Below are positions 22,189 to 57,963 of a stretch of DNA of 64,000 nt, one piece after another; within the stretch, counting starts at the first letter, position 1, and the number at the start of each line of letters is the position of its first letter. This DNA is from an archaeon (lineage in GTDB: Archaea; Thermoproteota; Nitrososphaeria; Nitrososphaerales; Gagatemarchaeaceae). The position numbers and the translations under genes were made by a program. The stretch spans positions 806,001 through 870,000 of the forward strand of contig JAKASL010000001.1 of assembly GCA_021819035.1 (NCBI GenBank), given 5' to 3'. The notes beneath the pieces were generated by a model. That model was not told the origin of the DNA. It did not search any database and saw nothing but the letters and a program-made list of their open reading frames with translations.

Positions 22189-23085
22189 CTAGGTGGAGGT
22201 CGAGGTCGCGGAGGCCGGCACCACTGGCGCAGGGATGGTCGCGACGTAGAACCCTCCTATCCCTTCGCCCGTCGTATCGCCGGGCGCCTTGTCGTGCGCC
22301 CATGTGAACAGCGCGTACCCGCCGAAGGTCACTATCTTCGTGGAGTTGTACGGGGTGATGGTCCCGAACGACGAAGCGCTCAGCCCCGGCGGGAGGGAGA
22401 GGCTCGGCGTGTAGAAGACAGGCCAGTTCGCCTCGCAGAGCGGGACGTCGCATGTCGTCGTCCCGCTGTTGGGTGTGTCGGTGGATCGGAAGTAAAGCGT
22501 GAACCCTGTGCTGTTGGTCAGGTACAGGCCCACAGACGCCTTGTAGGCGATGCCGACGCTGTAAGCCGGTCCCCCGATGATCTGCCCCCCGCTCTGCTGC
22601 AGGGTCGGCGGGATGGCGTACCACATCCCCCCGAAGTGGTCTATCCCCTCTCCGAGGGTGCTCCCGGCGCTCTTGTCAGGGGCGAAGAAATAGAGCGGCC
22701 ACCCGTTGTAGGCGGTCTGCTTGCTCCCGTCGGAGCGCGTGATCACAGAAAAGCTCGACGCGTTCAGTCCTGTGGGGACCTTAACGATGGGGGCGTAGAA
22801 CGGAGGCCAGATGGACGTGCAGGGCCCGGTGCAGGCGCTCGACCCGCTCCCCGGTGTGTCCGCGCCGAACATGTAGAGGGCGAACCCGGTGCCGTTGGTG
22901 AGGTAGTACCCTACCCCCGGCTTGTAGGCTATGTTCACGGAGTAACCGCTGGTCGCCGTGGCCGTGCTGACCTCTGTCGTGGTCGTCGTGCTCGTCCTTG
23001 GGTAGGCGAGGAGGTAGCCCGTCCCGGCTGCGAATATTATCGTAAGGACCACGAAGACAGCGGCGACGCCCTTGTAGCTCTGCAC
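22189..23085 (-). CDS. Secreted protein with two PF03640-type repeats
   Basis: A 298-residue protein. An N-terminal signal-anchor helix (about residues 8-28) and a Thr/Ser-rich linker lead into two copies of the secreted repeat of unknown function. The first copy has GVGYYLTNGTGFALYMFGAD and TSIWPPFYAP, and the second SVGLYLTNSTGFTLYFRSTD and EANWPVFYTP. Each copy has a cysteine pair before the WP motif. In bacteria this repeat (COG4315) occurs in lipoproteins. The start lies about 30 bases after a TATA box (reverse of TTTTATTACT, 23111-23120). It is divergent from a one-repeat paralogue at 23198. Confidence 0.88.
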   Translation of the reverse strand: MQSYKGVAAVFVVLTIIFAAGTGYLLAYPRTSTTTTTEVSTATATSGYSVNIAYKPGVGYYLTNGTGFALYMFGADTPGSGSSACTGPCTSIWPPFYAPIVKVPTGLNASSFSVITRSDGSKQTAYNGWPLYFFAPDKSAGSTLGEGIDHFGGMWYAIPPTLQQSGGQIIGGPAYSVGIAYKASVGLYLTNSTGFTLYFRSTDTPNSGTTTCDVPLCEANWPVFYTPSLSLPPGLSASSFGTITPYNSTKIVTFGGYALFTWAHDKAPGDTTGEGIGGFYVATIPAPVVPASATSTST

Positions 23086-23197
23086 GGCACGGCCACGGGA
23101 ATCGCCCTGTTTTTATTACTTGCTGACAGGCGGCAGACGGAGCTGGATCACCCGCCCAGCAAGAATTAAATCTGCCTCCAGGGGACAAACAGAGCCC

Positions 23198-23830
23198 GTG
23201 CGAGTCAACCAACACAGCGCCTGGAGGTTCGGTCGCGGTTTCGCCGTAGTATTGGTCGTCGACGTCATAGTCGCCGCAGGGCTGTTCTACGTGGTGGCGA
23301 GCGGGGGGGTGTACAACTTCCTCTACAGCTCTCCGCGCGCGGCCACGACCGCTTCGAGCTCTTCAACCACCGCGGCGGCCTCCAACTCCACCTCCGCCGC
23401 GTCGAACGCCACGGTGGGCGCCACCACTAGCACGTCGTCGGTAGCTTACACCATAGGCGTGGCGACCAGCCCCACCCTGGGGAAGTACCTGGTGGACGGG
23501 GCAGGGTTCACCCTCTACTACTTCGTCCCCGACCAGGTGGGGAACGCCACCTCGCCCCCCGTCAGCCACTGCACGACCGCCCTGAACTGCATCCAGGTGT
23601 GGCCCGTGTTCTACGCACCGACCATAGTCGTCCCCCCTTCGCTTAACGCTAGCTCCTTCACGACGTTCACGCGCGCCGACGGGAGCAAGCAGACCGCCTA
23701 CCTCGGCCACCCGCTCTACCTCTACCTCGGCGACTCCAGCCCCGGCCAGACCAACGGCAACGCCATCAACATCAACGGCGGATACTGGTACGCTGTCCCG
23801 GCGACCCCCGGTGCGACGTTCAACTCCTAG
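23198..23830 (+). CDS. Secreted protein with one PF03640-type repeat
   Basis: A 210-residue paralogue of the divergent neighbour. A membrane anchor at about residues 10-32 is followed by a Ser/Thr/Ala-rich stalk of about 50 residues and one repeat (TLGKYLVDGAGFTLYYFVPD, IQVWPVFYAP, GHPLYLYLGD). GTG 23198 is used because GAATTAAAT at about 23162-23170 lies 28 bases before it; the upstream part of the longer frame overlaps the promoter. Two cysteines (HCTTALNC) probably form a disulfide outside the cell. Function unknown. Confidence 0.87.
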   Translation: MRVNQHSAWRFGRGFAVVLVVDVIVAAGLFYVVASGGVYNFLYSSPRAATTASSSSTTAAASNSTSAASNATVGATTSTSSVAYTIGVATSPTLGKYLVDGAGFTLYYFVPDQVGNATSPPVSHCTTALNCIQVWPVFYAPTIVVPPSLNASSFTTFTRADGSKQTAYLGHPLYLYLGDSSPGQTNGNAININGGYWYAVPATPGATFNS

Positions 23831-52646: not shown

Positions 52647-53642
52647 TCAGGGGTTCCGTGCGAGCGCTTCCTTGTTCAGCGGATAGACAGGGGGTTTCCC
52701 ATCCAGCACCCTCGCAACGTCCTCGGCAGCTGCCATCGCCATCCTCCCGAAGGTGTAGGGGCCGTTGGCTGCGTGAGGCGTCAGTATCAGGTTGGGGATC
52801 CTGTCCCCCAGCCTGTAGAATGGGCTCTTCTCCGACGGAGGTTCCTCGTTCAGCACATCGAGGCAGGCTCCCGCTATCCTCCCTTCGGTCAGCGCCTCAG
52901 CCAGCGCGCCCTCGTCCACTATCTTCCCCCTGGCCGTGTTTATGAGGAAAGCAGACTTCTTCATCTTGCCGAGGAACTCCCTGTTGACCATCCCCCTGGT
53001 GGCAGGGGTGAGCGGCGTGTGGATCGAGATGGCGTCCGCCCGCGACAGGAGCTCGTCGAGGCCGACGAACTCCGCACCCGCGGCCTTCTCCACCTCGGCC
53101 ATCCTCACGACATCGTGATATATGACGTGCATCCCGAGGGCCTTCGCCCTCTTCGCCACCTCGAAGCCTATCCTCCCGGCTCCCAGCAGCCCCAGCGTGA
53201 GGTGATAGGCGTCCCCGACCTCCCGGGTCCATCTCTGCCTGTCCCACTCCCCCAGCCTGATTGCCCTGTTGAGCTGGGGGATCCGCTTCACGAACCCCAG
53301 GAGGTGGCCGATGGCCAGCTCGGCCACGGCGTAGCTCAGCTCCGGGATCGGGGTGGTGGTCACCACTATCCCCCGCTTCGTCGCCGCGGGGACGTCTATC
53401 TGGTCGTACCCCACCCCGGTCCGCGCGATTATCTTCAGGTCAGGGGCCGCGTCCATGACCTTCTCCGTGTACGGCTCCCCGCCCGCCAGGGCCGCGTCGT
53501 ACCCCTTCAACACAGACACCATGTCCTCCTCCCCCAGAGCCCTCTTCAGCGGGTTGTAGGTGAACTCGACCCCCCGCCCTCTGAGGAAGCCCTCCAGCTC
53601 TGAGGGGAGCGTCAAGGCGCCGGCGTAGATGCAGCGTTTCAA
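52647..53642 (-). CDS. D-2-hydroxyacid (phosphoglycerate-type) dehydrogenase
   Basis: A 331-residue dehydrogenase. The NAD motif is LGLLGAGRIGFEVAKRAKAL. Catalytic Arg is in LINTARGKIVDEGAL, Glu in DVLNEEPPSEK and His in ILTPHAANGPYTFG. TTG 53642 is preferred because CTAAAATACG (53665-53674, reverse) lies 24-32 bases upstream. The longer frame to 53732 runs into the terminal repeat of a mobile element. It is convergent with RraA and paralogous to the dehydrogenase at 48926. Confidence 0.9.
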   Translation of the reverse strand: MKRCIYAGALTLPSELEGFLRGRGVEFTYNPLKRALGEEDMVSVLKGYDAALAGGEPYTEKVMDAAPDLKIIARTGVGYDQIDVPAATKRGIVVTTTPIPELSYAVAELAIGHLLGFVKRIPQLNRAIRLGEWDRQRWTREVGDAYHLTLGLLGAGRIGFEVAKRAKALGMHVIYHDVVRMAEVEKAAGAEFVGLDELLSRADAISIHTPLTPATRGMVNREFLGKMKKSAFLINTARGKIVDEGALAEALTEGRIAGACLDVLNEEPPSEKSPFYRLGDRIPNLILTPHAANGPYTFGRMAMAAAEDVARVLDGKPPVYPLNKEALARNP

Positions 53643-53664
53643 TTCGGGTCGAAGGCCGGGGGTG

Positions 53665-53674
53665 CGTATTTTAG
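53665..53674 (-). promoter_or_regulatory. TATA box for the dehydrogenase, next to an element insertion
   Basis: CTAAAATACG (reverse strand) is at the leaderless distance from TTG 53642. The element's target duplication begins only seven bases upstream, at 53681. Confidence 0.65.
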
Positions 53675-53680
53675 GATTAA

Positions 53681-53686
53681 TACGGC
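53681..53686. repeat. Target-site duplication, left copy (TACGGC)
   Basis: TACGGC abuts the left terminal inverted repeat. The same six bases abut the right one at 55937-55942. Confidence 0.85.
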
Positions 53687-53762
53687 TGGTTCTGGTGCGT
53701 CTTCGGGTCTTGACTGATTTGGAGACCTCCAAAAGTTCTGGTGGTGCAACTCGGGGCTTTTG
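53687..53762 (+). repeat. Left terminal inverted repeat
   Basis: It begins TGGTTCTGGTGCGTCTTCGG and ends GGGGCTTTTG. It matches the reverse complement of 55861-55936 at all 76 positions by direct comparison. Confidence 0.95.
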
Positions 53763-53792
53763 CGCTATCTCTTCCTAATGGTCGGCGGTATC

Positions 53793-54134
53793 TTACTTGG
53801 GGTTCGGTAGGGGCATTTCGGGCCATTTCTTCTCAAGCAATTCTTTAGCTGTCACAATCTGAATCTTCGGGTATTTGCGGCCCCATGTCGGAGACTCGTA
53901 ATATTCTGCGTCTCTCGCCTCTGTCTTCATCGGTTCTGTCGGCTCATCGAGAGTTATCAAAATCCCCATCGCGGCCATCCAGTTATCGATGGTGCCGATT
54001 AGGTCACGCACATCGCCAGCTCCGACGTTCTCCCCGCCCTTGGCTTGGACGATAATCTTGCGGAGGTTCGGGTCGGTGCCTTCCTTGAAAGTTAGATAGC
54101 CGTCCCTGCCCCTGTCGGCCCCCTTCTTCCCGTT
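53793..54134 (-). pseudogene. C-terminal Mrr-like nuclease-domain fragment
   Basis: An open frame of 113 codons begins after a TGA at 54135-54137. It reads GKKGADRGRDGYLTFKEG, KIIVQAKGGENVGAGDVRDL, IGTIDNWMAAMGILITLDEP, and ends YPKIQIVTAKELLEKKWPEM. D-x2-x-D-G and I-V-Q-x-K-G-G match the catalytic core of Mrr-like PD-(D/E)xK domains found at the C-terminus of some DNA methylase/restriction proteins. No start codon exists before GTG 54011, which would drop the catalytic part. It lies directly inside the left repeat. Probably the 3' end of a captured gene. Confidence 0.65.
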
Positions 54135-54166
54135 TCAGTCAAGAAGGGTTCGAAGCAATAGACTCG

Positions 54167-55108
54167 TCAGTTCTGCATGGCCGGAAGCAACACGGCGTCC
54201 TGTTTTGCGTTGCCAGAGAACTCTTCGAAGATTGTCTGATGCCCCTCGTAGTATCTGCCTTCCTTCGATAGGATTTCCACGTGGACTATTCTCTGGATTT
54301 GGCCCGTCTCGACGACGCTTTCTTGGTAGCCGCCGCCATAGAACCTCTTGTAGTTCTGGACGAGTTCGTTCTGTTCCGCCTTCACCAGATGCCCCGCCAT
54401 GAACGCGGGATAGTAGTATGCGTTGCACCATCTCAGATAAGGCGTAATCATCGTCCAATGGAGAACGTCTTGCAGGTATCCCGCCTGTTTCCGAAGGACT
54501 TCTCCGAGAATCGTCTCGTAGAGAAGCGGCGGTTCGATTTCGTTGGCTTGGAGATTCTTCATCTCTGGGCCAGCGACGAACTGACCTCGCTCTTCCTTGA
54601 TGTAGTGCAAGTCTCTCAGGAGGGTAAAGTAGTTTCTGACCTGTTCGAACATCTCGTATTTCTTCCCTAGCGCATTCGGGAGCACGAACCCATCCTCTTC
54701 GATTGCCGTCAGGATGTTCCTCAACGGACTCATGTTCATGTCCACTTGAGGGATGCGGACAAGGCGCGTATACAGGGTAGGGAGTAGAGCCTGCTGGGAG
54801 TGTTCCGTCATTGTCATGTATCTGTCGTTTACTCTCCTTACGAACTCGTTCCGGTTCATGTCCGTGATTCTGAAGTCCTTCTTGTTGCGACTCCACTTGA
54901 TGGACGCTATGTCGTCGAGTTCGATGAATCTAATTTCCGAGTCGTTTTTGTCCTTGTGGTCGAGGACGAACTCTTGAATCTCGATTCCCAAGACGGCCCT
55001 TGATGAAGAAGGGTCGTATTCCGAGAAATACAGGTATGGGCTATACCGCCTTCTAAGGTAGGTCAGCAGTTGCTTGCTCTGGAGCTTCTCAGTTTCCGTT
55101 AGCCTCAT
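54167..55108 (-). CDS. Orphan 313-aa protein of the mobile element
   Basis: A soluble, charged protein starting MRLTETEKLQSKQLLTYLRR. ATG 55108 overlaps the stop of the peptidase frame as ATGA. Its first half is beta-rich (AVLGIEIQEFVLDHKDKNDS, IRFIELDDIASIKWSRNKKD), its second half helical with a tyrosine-rich part (WCNAYYYPAFMAGHLVKAEQ, NYKRFYGGGYQE). EMFEQVRNYFTLLRDLHYIK with EERGQFVAGPEM resembles a winged helix. No transposase DDE triad or HUH motif is seen. It is probably made as an operon with the peptidase. Function unknown. Confidence 0.75.
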   Translation of the reverse strand: MRLTETEKLQSKQLLTYLRRRYSPYLYFSEYDPSSSRAVLGIEIQEFVLDHKDKNDSEIRFIELDDIASIKWSRNKKDFRITDMNRNEFVRRVNDRYMTMTEHSQQALLPTLYTRLVRIPQVDMNMSPLRNILTAIEEDGFVLPNALGKKYEMFEQVRNYFTLLRDLHYIKEERGQFVAGPEMKNLQANEIEPPLLYETILGEVLRKQAGYLQDVLHWTMITPYLRWCNAYYYPAFMAGHLVKAEQNELVQNYKRFYGGGYQESVVETGQIQRIVHVEILSKEGRYYEGHQTIFEEFSGNAKQDAVLLPAMQN

Positions 55109-55800
55109 TGTTTTTGCACCACTACCTCTCTCTCTGGGGTTTGCTTCATCGAATCGAGGAGCGTGTTCATAATCGTTTCCTTCTTCATCCAGAGACACCA
55201 TTGGGTTGCAACGGACGCGCCCCTCCAATAGGATATGAAATCTGGTGTCTTAAGCGCGACAACCCCGCGCCCAAGATTCTGGTTCAGGCGAACGGGCATC
55301 GGCTTTATGGATTCGAACGGGTCGTAGACCATCGTTATTTCTCCCGTCGAACGGAACACCATTACCGCGTGGTCGGAATCATTGTCCTTCCTGTAATCGC
55401 GCTCGTTTCGGAGATATTCATGCGATAACCCCACCACGGGATACGAAAAAGCCTTGTCCACCAAGACGGCGCGTAGTCGGTTATGGCTTGTTCCGGTCGA
55501 GTCACCGGCAACGTAGCCTTAGGGCTTCAGGGCTTTTCTGAGATTGGGAAGGAGGACGATGTATCGGGCGCCGACATTGTTCCGGTAGCCGCAAATATCA
55601 TTGACTCTTCGAAGAGAGAAGTTCAGGTCGGGGTCTTGGAACCTTATCCCCATCTCATGCAGGGCATTGGTTACGCAGGTGGTTTCGCACGAACTATTGT
55701 TAGGTTGGAACACGAAAGGCCTTGTTATCTCGCCTATCATCCTCCCAACCTTCTCATCTATCCGGTCTCTTGGAGCCACCGACGGAAGGTCGCTCAACAT
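55105..55800 (-). pseudogene. C39-like cysteine peptidase interrupted by one in-frame TAA
   Basis: ATG 55800 lies 23-29 bases after a TATA box. The first part contains FVFQPNNSSCETTCVTNALH, the Gln-x5-Cys motif of C39/papain-like peptidases, and ends KALKP at TAA 55519-55521. The same frame continues without further stops through RLRAVLVDKAFSYPVVGLSH and SDHAVMVFRSTGEITMVYDP, the His and Asp part of the same fold, to 55105. A single nonsense change has therefore split one gene of about 231 codons. Restart at TTG 55467 or GTG 55464 would give the C-terminal half alone. Confidence 0.65.
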
Positions 55801-55822
55801 CGCCAAGGCGGATGCAGTTCTC

Positions 55823-55829
55823 AATTAAG
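55823..55829 (-). promoter_or_regulatory. TATA box for the mobile-element operon
   Basis: CTTAATT (reverse strand) is 23-29 bases before ATG 55800 and just inside the right terminal repeat, so the element carries its own promoter of the host type. Confidence 0.6.
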
Positions 55830-55860
55830 CGTATCATCCTTCCCATTCTCAGCTTTGACA

Positions 55861-55936
55861 CAAAAGCCCCGAGTTGCACCACCAGAACTTTTGGAGGTCT
55901 CCAAATCAGTCAAGACCCGAAGACGCACCAGAACCA
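55861..55936 (-). repeat. Right terminal inverted repeat
   Basis: Exact inverted copy of 53687-53762. It ends ACGCACCAGAACCA next to the duplicated TACGGC. Confidence 0.95.
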
Positions 55937-55942
55937 TACGGC
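55937..55942. repeat. Target-site duplication, right copy (TACGGC)
   Basis: Direct repeat of 53681-53686. The uninterrupted site would read TTAATACGGCTGGCAGTAGC. Confidence 0.85.
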
Positions 55943-55972
55943 TGGCAGTAGCAGGGACTCTAAATCAGGGGA

Positions 55973-56016: not shown

Positions 56017-57828
56017 TTACTTCGCCGGTGTGGAGGGCTTTCTCCTACTCATCGCTACAGCCGCGATTATGATCACGACTATGGCGACTGCGGCCACAGC
56101 GTAGTAGTAGTTCGTGTAGTTGGGGGCCGCGGCCGTAGAGGTGGACGAGGATGATGGCGTGGATGATGCCGTGGTCGTGATGGTGCCTGTCGACGACGCG
56201 GGGGTCACGGACGTGAGGACGTTCTCGCAGACCACCGTGTCGCAGAAGACGTTGTCGTAGGAGGACTGTCCGAGTGCAGGCTGCCAGTTGGAGAACGCCA
56301 AGTCGTTGTAAGCCACGTACTGCGGCAGGACGACGAGGTAGTCGAGGACGGCTGCCTGTGCCATGACGGACTCTGCCTGCTTGATCTCGCTCAAAGACTG
56401 GGCCTGGTTGGGGTTGTCGAGCGCCTCGTTGAAGTATGTCGTGAAGGTGGAGTTCTTCCACCCGTTCAGGTTGCTCGGGTTGCGCATCCATCTGAACGGG
56501 ACCGGGGCGTAGTTGTTGGGGAAGACAAGTAGTTGGAAGTTCAGCGAGGTCCAGTCAGAATGGACCGTGGCATAGGCAGGGTTTTCGAGGTTGACGTTGA
56601 TCCCCGCCGCTTCGATGGCGGACTGGACGAACTGCGAGGCGCGGACGTAGTTCGGGTCGTTGTTGGGCGCCTCGACCGTTATGGTCACCGCAGTCCCGTT
56701 GGCGTAGTCCCAGTGGCCGCTGTTCTGGACCAGGCCTGCCTTCGCAAGGAGGGAGTCAGCCGTGCTCACGCTGTAGTTGTAGAGCGGGGCGCCGGCCGCG
56801 TAGTAAGTAGGGACGACCTGCGGCAGCAGCAGCTGCGGGTTGCCCGTCGCGGTCTGGTTGCCGTAGAGAGAGCTCTTGACCTCGTTGCTTGGGAGGAGGT
56901 AGAACAGGGCCTGCCTGAACGCTGTCTCGTTCCAGGGGTAGCCTGTGGTCTTGATGTATATCTGTAGCTGGTAGTCGCTCGGCACCTGGGACACCTTGAT
57001 GTTCGGGTTCGACGCCAGCGCCGATATGTCGCTGGGCGTTATCGTCCCCGCGTCTATGGTGCCTGCTGCCAAGGCGCTGGTCTGGGCGGAGTCGCTCGTG
57101 AAGAACTGGAGCGTCACTGTGCTGATGGTGGGGGTCTTGCCATGCCAGCTCGGGGAGTAGGGATTGGCCTGCAGGGTCATCGTGTAGCTCCCCGCGGTGT
57201 AGCCTACCGGGACATAGGCGGAATCGCCTGGCCCGCCGAGGACCGACACCGACTGCAGCACGTTGTTCCCGAACCCGAACTTCTTGTAGTAGTGGTATGG
57301 GTAGATTGAGTACAGGAAGACGAGCAGCGGGAACTTGGCGTCAGTCTGGAATGTCTTCAAGACCACCGCTGTGGAGTTGAGGATCGACACGCTCTGGACT
57401 GTCCCGCGGATCGCTCCCCACCTGTCTATGTTGGAGGTGTTCGCGTAAGGCCCTGTCGGCAAGAAGATCCCGAACGAGTAGGCGAGGTCCGTGGAGTTGA
57501 TCGGAACCCCGTCAGACCACTTCAGGTTCGGAGAGATCAGGTTGACGATCCACTGGGTGTCGTTCGTGTTCCCAGGGACAGGGGTCGGGACGGTGCATAT
57601 CTCAGGGAGCACGCTGCCGTTGATAGACAGGTGGCCCACCGGGAGATACGGGACGTCGATGGCCGTGTTGCCGAAGGAAGCCGCCGTCGGGTTCTGGAAG
57701 AACGTCGAAGGCGGGCCGTACTCCATGCCGATGGTGATGTTGCTCGCAGGCGAGGCCGCGAAGCTGTCCAGGCTGAGAGACGATGTGACTAGGATGAATG
57801 TTAACGCTATGACGAGTATTTTCTTCAT
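56017..57828 (-). CDS. Family-5 ABC transporter solute-binding protein, membrane-anchored
   Basis: A 603-residue extracellular protein. A signal peptide (residues 4-24) is followed by the SBP_bac_5 fold: LISPNLKWSDGVPINSTDLA, YSFGIFLPTGPYANTSNIDR, NETAFRQALFYLLPSNEVKS and the C-terminal NPNQAQSLSEIKQAESVMAQ. A Thr/Ser-rich stalk and a C-terminal helix (YAVAAVAIVVIIIAAVAMSR) anchor it in archaeal fashion. It would capture oligopeptides or oligosaccharides. No permease or ATPase gene is beside it. ATG 57828 follows TTATAAAC at leaderless spacing. Confidence 0.93.
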   Translation of the reverse strand: MKKILVIALTFILVTSSLSLDSFAASPASNITIGMEYGPPSTFFQNPTAASFGNTAIDVPYLPVGHLSINGSVLPEICTVPTPVPGNTNDTQWIVNLISPNLKWSDGVPINSTDLAYSFGIFLPTGPYANTSNIDRWGAIRGTVQSVSILNSTAVVLKTFQTDAKFPLLVFLYSIYPYHYYKKFGFGNNVLQSVSVLGGPGDSAYVPVGYTAGSYTMTLQANPYSPSWHGKTPTISTVTLQFFTSDSAQTSALAAGTIDAGTITPSDISALASNPNIKVSQVPSDYQLQIYIKTTGYPWNETAFRQALFYLLPSNEVKSSLYGNQTATGNPQLLLPQVVPTYYAAGAPLYNYSVSTADSLLAKAGLVQNSGHWDYANGTAVTITVEAPNNDPNYVRASQFVQSAIEAAGINVNLENPAYATVHSDWTSLNFQLLVFPNNYAPVPFRWMRNPSNLNGWKNSTFTTYFNEALDNPNQAQSLSEIKQAESVMAQAAVLDYLVVLPQYVAYNDLAFSNWQPALGQSSYDNVFCDTVVCENVLTSVTPASSTGTITTTASSTPSSSSTSTAAAPNYTNYYYAVAAVAIVVIIIAAVAMSRRKPSTPAK

Positions 57829-57850
57829 CGCGAATTGGTCCGAGAAGCAG

Positions 57851-57858
57851 TTTATAAC
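57851..57858 (-). promoter_or_regulatory. TATA box for the solute-binding-protein gene
   Basis: GTTATAAA (reverse strand) is 23-30 bases before ATG 57828. Confidence 0.7.
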
Positions 57859-57963
57859 GACTCCGATGAAGCGACGGAAACAGAGGCGGAGGTCTGCGGG
57901 CTGCGAGCAACGGTCTCCTCCGCTTGCAATATGGTTATGACCACGGCGTCCGCGGGCGGCCGC

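Follow-up and report, generated by a model that had tools for sequence, protein, structure and literature searches.

A probable transposase-less insertion cassette of an IS6-related cargo transposon carries a conserved peptidase–partner gene pair in a Nitrososphaerales archaeon

The element at positions 53688-55935 of the window, the whole stretch of 64,000 nucleotides of archaeal DNA that was analysed, is very probably a transposase-less mobile insertion cassette (MIC) of an IS6-related cargo transposon. It has perfect terminal inverted repeats flanked by a target duplication, and the orthologous locus of a relative is empty. Its ends are shared with elements that encode a transposase, and its gene module is conserved in other archaea. 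Movement in trans by a transposase of the clade found in the related element L034 is the most likely way in which the element reached its site, and the order of events proposed below is the most likely one given the sequences compared. An apparent orphan is thus assigned to a family whose enzymology is known. The mechanism is ordinary, but the element represents a little-described cargo-carrying branch and holds a conserved, unannotated two-gene archaeal module.

Element boundaries and genomic setting

The initial annotation of this DNA described exact inverted arms at 53687-53762 and 55861-55936, and these 76-nt arms are indeed 100% complementary. Elsewhere in the window, perfect inverted repeats reach at most 26 nt, and the longest in ten Markov controls measure 14-17 nt, so that the arms are far beyond chance. 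The true ends of the element were fixed by aligning many related ends from other genomes. The elements start with GG, which places the boundary one base further in on each side. Re-measured accordingly, the element spans 2248 bp and has terminal repeats of 75 bp rather than the 76 bp given previously; the outermost base belongs to the target site duplication. The duplication is 8 bp long, ATACGGCT, and the 6-bp duplication TACGGC proposed before is ruled out by the alignment of related ends, as it forms the inner six base pairs of ATACGGCT. The repeat had been read one base too long and the duplication two bases too short because the outer A and T of ATACGGCT pair with each other. The features of the locus are as follows.

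52647..53642, minus strand: left-hand host gene for a D-2-hydroxyacid dehydrogenase-like protein, with the element inserted about 38 bp upstream of the start codon
53680..53687, no strand: left target duplication ATACGGCT; related elements also have 8-bp duplications
53688..53762, plus strand: left terminal inverted repeat of 75 bp with two blocks, GGTTCTGGTGCGTCTTCGGGT ... GGTGGTGCAACTCGGGGC; end set by aligned related ends
53793..54134, minus strand: relic of an Mrr-type endonuclease domain, C-terminal ~110 residues (PF04471, 2.5e-8; PF22722, 7.2e-10)
54167..55108, minus strand: partner protein, intact 313 aa, predicted central winged helix at about residues 125-190; absent from Pfam
55105..55824, minus strand: gene for a C39-like cysteine peptidase, interrupted in frame by a TAA at 55519-55521; the Cys, His and Asp positions are kept
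55861..55935, minus strand: right terminal inverted repeat of 75 bp, identical to the left one; end set by aligned related ends
55936..55943, no strand: right target duplication ATACGGCT
56017..57900, minus strand: host extracellular solute-binding protein gene (peptide ABC type), right neighbour; 5' end approximate

Two similar blocks, GGTTCTGGTGCGTCTTCGGGT and GGTGGTGCAACTCGGGGC, make up each end of the window type, with a spacer of variable length between them. This architecture suggests two putative binding sites per end. The interior of the element is richer in A/T than the host, as had been noticed before, with a G+C content of 0.52, against 0.63 for the flanking DNA and 0.65 for the window as a whole. 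The G+C content of the other elements examined is likewise below that of their flanks.

The source genome was assembled into three contigs of 1.67 Mb in total and is 88% complete. Archaeal amoA is absent from the source genus and family and present in other families of the same order, a pattern that fits a non-ammonia-oxidising branch of Nitrososphaerales. In a genome of the same genus (G009, locus L096), the two neighbouring host genes are adjacent, separated by a short spacer, and the insertion is absent; they share 81% and 78% DNA identity with those in the window. The spacer in G009 is too diverged for a single ATACGGCT to be discerned, so that emptiness is shown for the locus as a whole rather than for the eight bases. 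The repeat pair of the window is the only one in the source genome assembly, and no second copy of the element was detected in any genome searched. The insertion lies just beyond an A/T-rich stretch (window 53640-53690) that is a possible TATA region of the dehydrogenase gene, and the element may have altered the promoter of this gene. The interval 22705-23704, where an inverted repeat and an 8-bp duplication seemed to mark another element, was rejected: it spans two similar secreted-protein genes in opposite orientations, and a search of it with the repeat tool gave no inverted repeat.

Elements with related ends

A search with the terminal repeat identified related ends across the genus and the order. 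The first 24 bp of the window repeat are identical (24/24) to both ends of L034, an element from another family of the same order. L034 is 4487 bp long, is flanked by the 8-bp duplication CTTCACCA and encodes an intact transposase of 394 aa with a SWIM zinc finger, a zinc ribbon and an IS6-type DDE domain (PF13610). Shorter relatives contain C-terminal remains of transposases of the same clade. In the 661-bp element L037 (G025:C12, duplication CCGCCCGA), the relic is 69% identical to the L034-clade transposase. The relic in G026:C102 is 77% identical, and the end found there matches the window repeat with 85% identity over 73 bp. In G036:C17, the C-terminal part of a transposase, 80% identical, adjoins an end of the window type. 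Two further elements with window-type ends and 8-bp duplications are L039, which is MITE-like (464 bp), and L041 (1238 bp). L041 (4722-5959) encloses an apparently decayed TnpB/OrfB-type gene and is possibly an element within an element.

No transposase homology was found inside the window element, in agreement with the earlier description. The assembled 88% of the source genome contains no transposase of the L034 clade either. The best IS6-like transposase there (C3:491153-492244) is 35% identical and is associated with different ends, so that the mobiliser may have been lost, may be encoded in the missing 12% of the genome, or may have come and gone. The source genome also contains a complete autonomous IS6-like cargo element (G000:C3:490102-493159, equivalent to L086:4103-7160). 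It is flanked by the duplication CGACTTCG and encodes a SWIM transposase of 398 aa together with a GIY-YIG protein and AbrB-like and membrane ORFs.

The 24/24 match to the tips of L034, the 8-bp duplication and transposase of L034, and the relics in shorter relatives indicate that the window element is a non-autonomous cargo cassette, or MIC, of the IS6-related family, with no novel mobility mechanism. An element that encodes a transposase has matching ends, and the window element itself has passengers and a target duplication where a transposase is absent. The intact 313-aa frame between the ends separates it from MITEs, and the scans of its proteins against Pfam, NCBIfam and PADLOC gave no match to Cas1, the hallmark of casposons. 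The initial annotation could not assign the repeats to an IS family that it could name; the ends belong to the IS6-related family. Its suggestion that the element is non-autonomous and was moved in trans is supported by the empty locus and by the association of the same ends with one clade of IS6-like DDE transposases or their relics.

The cargo had been described as a peptidase and an unknown protein. Both are present, but the peptidase frame is broken, and a remnant of an Mrr domain lies in the element as well. The remnant lacks the methyltransferase part of a methyltransferase-Mrr fusion and shows 36% identity to the Mrr part of the L034 cargo and 46% to that of the L114 cargo. It is located beside the left repeat, in the position and orientation of the methyltransferase-Mrr gene of L034. 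The window element can thus be read as descending by deletion from an L034-like element and as containing a second cargo unit in addition. Such an ancestor would probably have lost its transposase and most of the methyltransferase-Mrr gene, the tail of which would have remained beside the left repeat after the deletion. The passenger is the two-gene module of the C39-like cysteine peptidase, whose frame overlaps that of a partner of ~310 aa with a predicted winged-helix core. An L034-clade DDE transposase with its SWIM, zinc ribbon and IS6-type catalytic domains, acting in trans, would recognise the two-block 75-bp ends, cut at the GG tips and join them to the target with a stagger of 8 bp. 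Gap filling would then produce ATACGGCT on both sides.

Placement among IS6 and other cargo-carrying elements

To delimit the family, the surroundings of these transposases were examined for inverted ends flanked by exact 8-bp duplications. The resulting 23 bounded elements contain a transposase sequence, are 2.1-6.5 kb long and each include further reading frames. L105, with matched ends and an imperfect duplication, is the 24th. The aligned D, D and E motifs are kept in all 24 transposases. The similarity of the ends tracks the identity of the transposases, with a Spearman coefficient of 0.43 that was reached in none of 2000 permutations. Domain PF13610 scores above its cut-off in the transposases of L034, L084, L086, L106, L117 and L130, and IS6 is by far the best-matching family for all six transposases tested. 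The cargo of the family includes methyltransferase-Mrr fusions (L034 and L114), a methyltransferase with a ThaI-type endonuclease (L130), DUF3800 and a type IIG-like protein (both L146), OLD-like AAA_15 ATPases close to NsnB/AriA models (L106 and L132), the GIY-YIG protein of L086, a GHKL ATPase (L121, which is related to L123) and membrane proteins. The 4.1-kb element L130 (1128-5237) contains a full ThaI-type restriction-modification pair and resides in an amoA-positive genome. L121 (1503-4978) and L123 (4787-8413), which come from different families, have the same gene order: transposase, 104-aa regulator-like protein, 108-aa zinc-finger-like protein and GHKL-type ATPase.

The mobiliser is called IS6-related because the short transposases of the set score above the 125-bit cut-off of the NCBIfam IS6 model NF033587 (146-148 bits), whereas those of the SWIM type score below it (95-99 bits; L034 type, 99). 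According to the IS6 review, members of the family are ~0.8 kb long and have ends of 15-20 bp with GG tips and the motifs cTGTt and caaa. The archaeal ends have the GG tip and CTG, lack caaa and are 16-115 bp long. The duplications agree with IS6 in being 8 bp long, namely ATACGGCT in the window and those of the family elements (23 exact, L105 imperfect). The compact format of 0.7-0.9 kb with only a transposase is not shared by the cargo-bearing elements of 2.1-6.5 kb, nor by the window element of 2248 bp without a transposase. It is possible, although unlikely, that the transposases form a separate unnamed family related to IS6, and that the window element is a cassette of that family. The sub-threshold scores of the SWIM type, the long ends and elements, and the caaa motif missing from the tip speak for this separation. 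However, shorter transposases of the same set pass the IS6 cut-off, the GG tips, CTG motif and 8-bp duplications agree with IS6, and zinc-finger and N-terminal extensions are already present in clade i of IS6. It is extremely improbable that the window element is an assembly artefact or a simple inverted duplication, as might be suspected because the 75-bp arms are perfect and come from one metagenome-type assembly. Window-type ends recur in independent genomes, where the 8-bp duplication differs from element to element, and the insert is missing from the orthologous locus.

As a MIC of an IS6-related family, the window element resembles MIC231 of IS231 from Bacillus cereus and the mic elements with qnr genes, in which passengers replace the transposase. 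They have in common repeats of a known IS, a target duplication, passengers in place of a transposase and presumed movement in trans, and MIC231A1 likewise carries a peptidase gene. The window element differs in being archaeal and related to IS6 instead of IS4/IS231, in its two-block 75-bp ends, and in having a conserved two-gene module next to a relic of earlier cargo; its movement in trans is proposed from sequence comparison. Its sister elements share PF13610, GG tips with CTG and 8-bp duplications with IS26, IS257, the archaeal IS6 clades and ISDsp3. Nevertheless, they are 2.1-6.5 kb instead of ~0.8 kb long, their ends measure 16-115 instead of 15-20 bp, and many of their transposases contain SWIM. 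Passengers are the rule in the archaeal elements, whereas the review lists a single passenger-carrying member, ISDsp3, and the window element has no transposase at all. The IS-like transposons and casposons of the thaumarchaeal survey by Krupovic et al. (2019) come from the same order and also have inverted repeats and duplications, but the window element lacks Cas1. That survey detected no passenger-carrying composite DNA transposons in archaea. IS6-type transposons of non-ammonia-oxidising Nitrososphaerales thus routinely carry passengers, a kind of element represented once in the review and not at all in the survey. No description of SWIM-type IS6 transposases in archaea was found in the literature searched. 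Tn7-like transposons (PMC8649781) similarly carry defence-type genes as cargo, but the IS6-type elements are much smaller and have a single transposase, and neither TnsABCDE nor a target selector was seen in them.

The peptidase and partner gene pair

In the window, the TGA of the peptidase gene overlaps the ATG of the partner gene (ATGA). The same overlap occurs in L106, and the two genes are adjacent or overlapping elsewhere. In 400 genomes of the order, the partner family is represented seven times, always directly behind a C39-like peptidase gene. The partner of L084, a 3125-bp element with a transposase and the duplication CCGTCGCG, is 44% identical to that of the window. L104 is a transposase-less element of 1723 bp that contains only the two genes and is flanked by TGTAAATT. 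The module lies inside elements with a transposase in L105 and L106 and adjoins a transposase relic in L085. In L043, a window-type end is located 36 bp from the peptidase start, and the contig ends after it. In the 5.4-kb IS6-like element L106 (4617-10035), the pair adjoins a divergent OLD-like AAA_15 ATPase (NsnB/AriA-like) and a basic protein of 192 aa.

Five of six peptidase homologues match PF13529, and the profile matches of the peptidase are to C39 domains of transporters. The window copy, interrupted by a stop, has no Pfam match of its own. Cys and His are invariant and Asp is near-invariant in the alignment of the Thermoproteota peptidases. The Cys-His-Asp arrangement is common to C39-like families (PF13529 and PF03412; bacteriocin transporters and the AvrRpt2 fold). 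However, the module peptidase is stand-alone, has no transporter or leader peptide nearby and is always followed by the partner gene. The literature on archaeal C39 peptidases describes secreted or bacteriocin-type loci, and the peptidase-partner pair is not among them. The partner belongs to no Pfam family. A winged helix is tentatively predicted in the middle of the protein. It is hinted at, at residues 125-180, by a low-confidence AlphaFold model computed with two sequences (mean pLDDT 42), and Sso10a gave a weak profile match (E = 0.014) that also points to a central winged helix. The peptidase matches no PADLOC defence system, and the partner has only scattered weak matches to single members of such systems. 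No homologues of the partner were found in the viral contigs scanned or in phage records.

The module was identified at 16 further loci, in Thermoproteota genomes and on haloarchaeal plasmids. Eight of the additional pairs are located in six Thermoproteota genomes from outside the order, and no transposon ends were detected around the loci checked. In three genomes of one distant genus (L163, L164 and L169), the module is found next to a cytochrome b5-like gene at a shared chromosomal position, with no transposon ends visible around it. The plasmids that carry the module are from Haloferax lucentense and Halobellus limi. The peptidase versions encoded there have lost the catalytic Cys and so keep the fold without the protease chemistry.

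It is highly improbable that the 313-aa protein and the peptidase are themselves mobility machinery and constitute a new transposition system, an option raised in the initial annotation for the 313-aa protein. The two genes take up most of the window element and are also present in elements whose ends are of other types. However, same-end elements without the pair carry the DDE transposase or its relic, and the pair is missing from most of the 24 transposase-bearing elements. Moreover, other Thermoproteota and the haloarchaeal plasmids have the pair with no ends detectable around it, and no nuclease or recombinase motif was found in its proteins. A direct part of the module in transposition is thus unlikely. 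A conflict function that protects the host or the element is tentatively favoured, in which the protease would act on or with a partner predicted to bind DNA. This role is favoured because of the patchy occurrence of the pair, its divergence to often less than 25% identity, its tight coupling, its carriage by transposons and plasmids, and the defence-type cargo of sister elements. Nearly as likely is a regulatory or addiction cassette of the element, comparable to ImmA/ImmR or to toxin-antitoxin pairs, instead of antiviral defence. The tight translational coupling, the winged-helix-like core of the partner and the persistence of the module in transposase-less elements and on plasmids suit this alternative. 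However, the haloarchaeal copies without the catalytic Cys imply that protease activity is not always needed, several chromosomal copies are in no element, and sister cargo rich in restriction and defence-type genes suits defence equally. More speculative is the combined proposal that IS6-related transposons are a main vehicle of small defence and conflict cassettes in Nitrososphaerales, and that the pair is an undescribed two-gene archaeal conflict system, antiviral or addictive, shuttled by them, including by transposase-less members.

The analysis defines a conserved protease-partner gene pair in archaea, haloarchaeal plasmids included. The haloarchaeal genera that carry module plasmids are culturable, which makes the function of the module testable. 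On both of these plasmids (L109:4298-7403 and L110:4276-7476), the module with its Cys-less pseudo-peptidase is followed by a convergent gene for a membrane protein, which in Halobellus limi is DUF2254.
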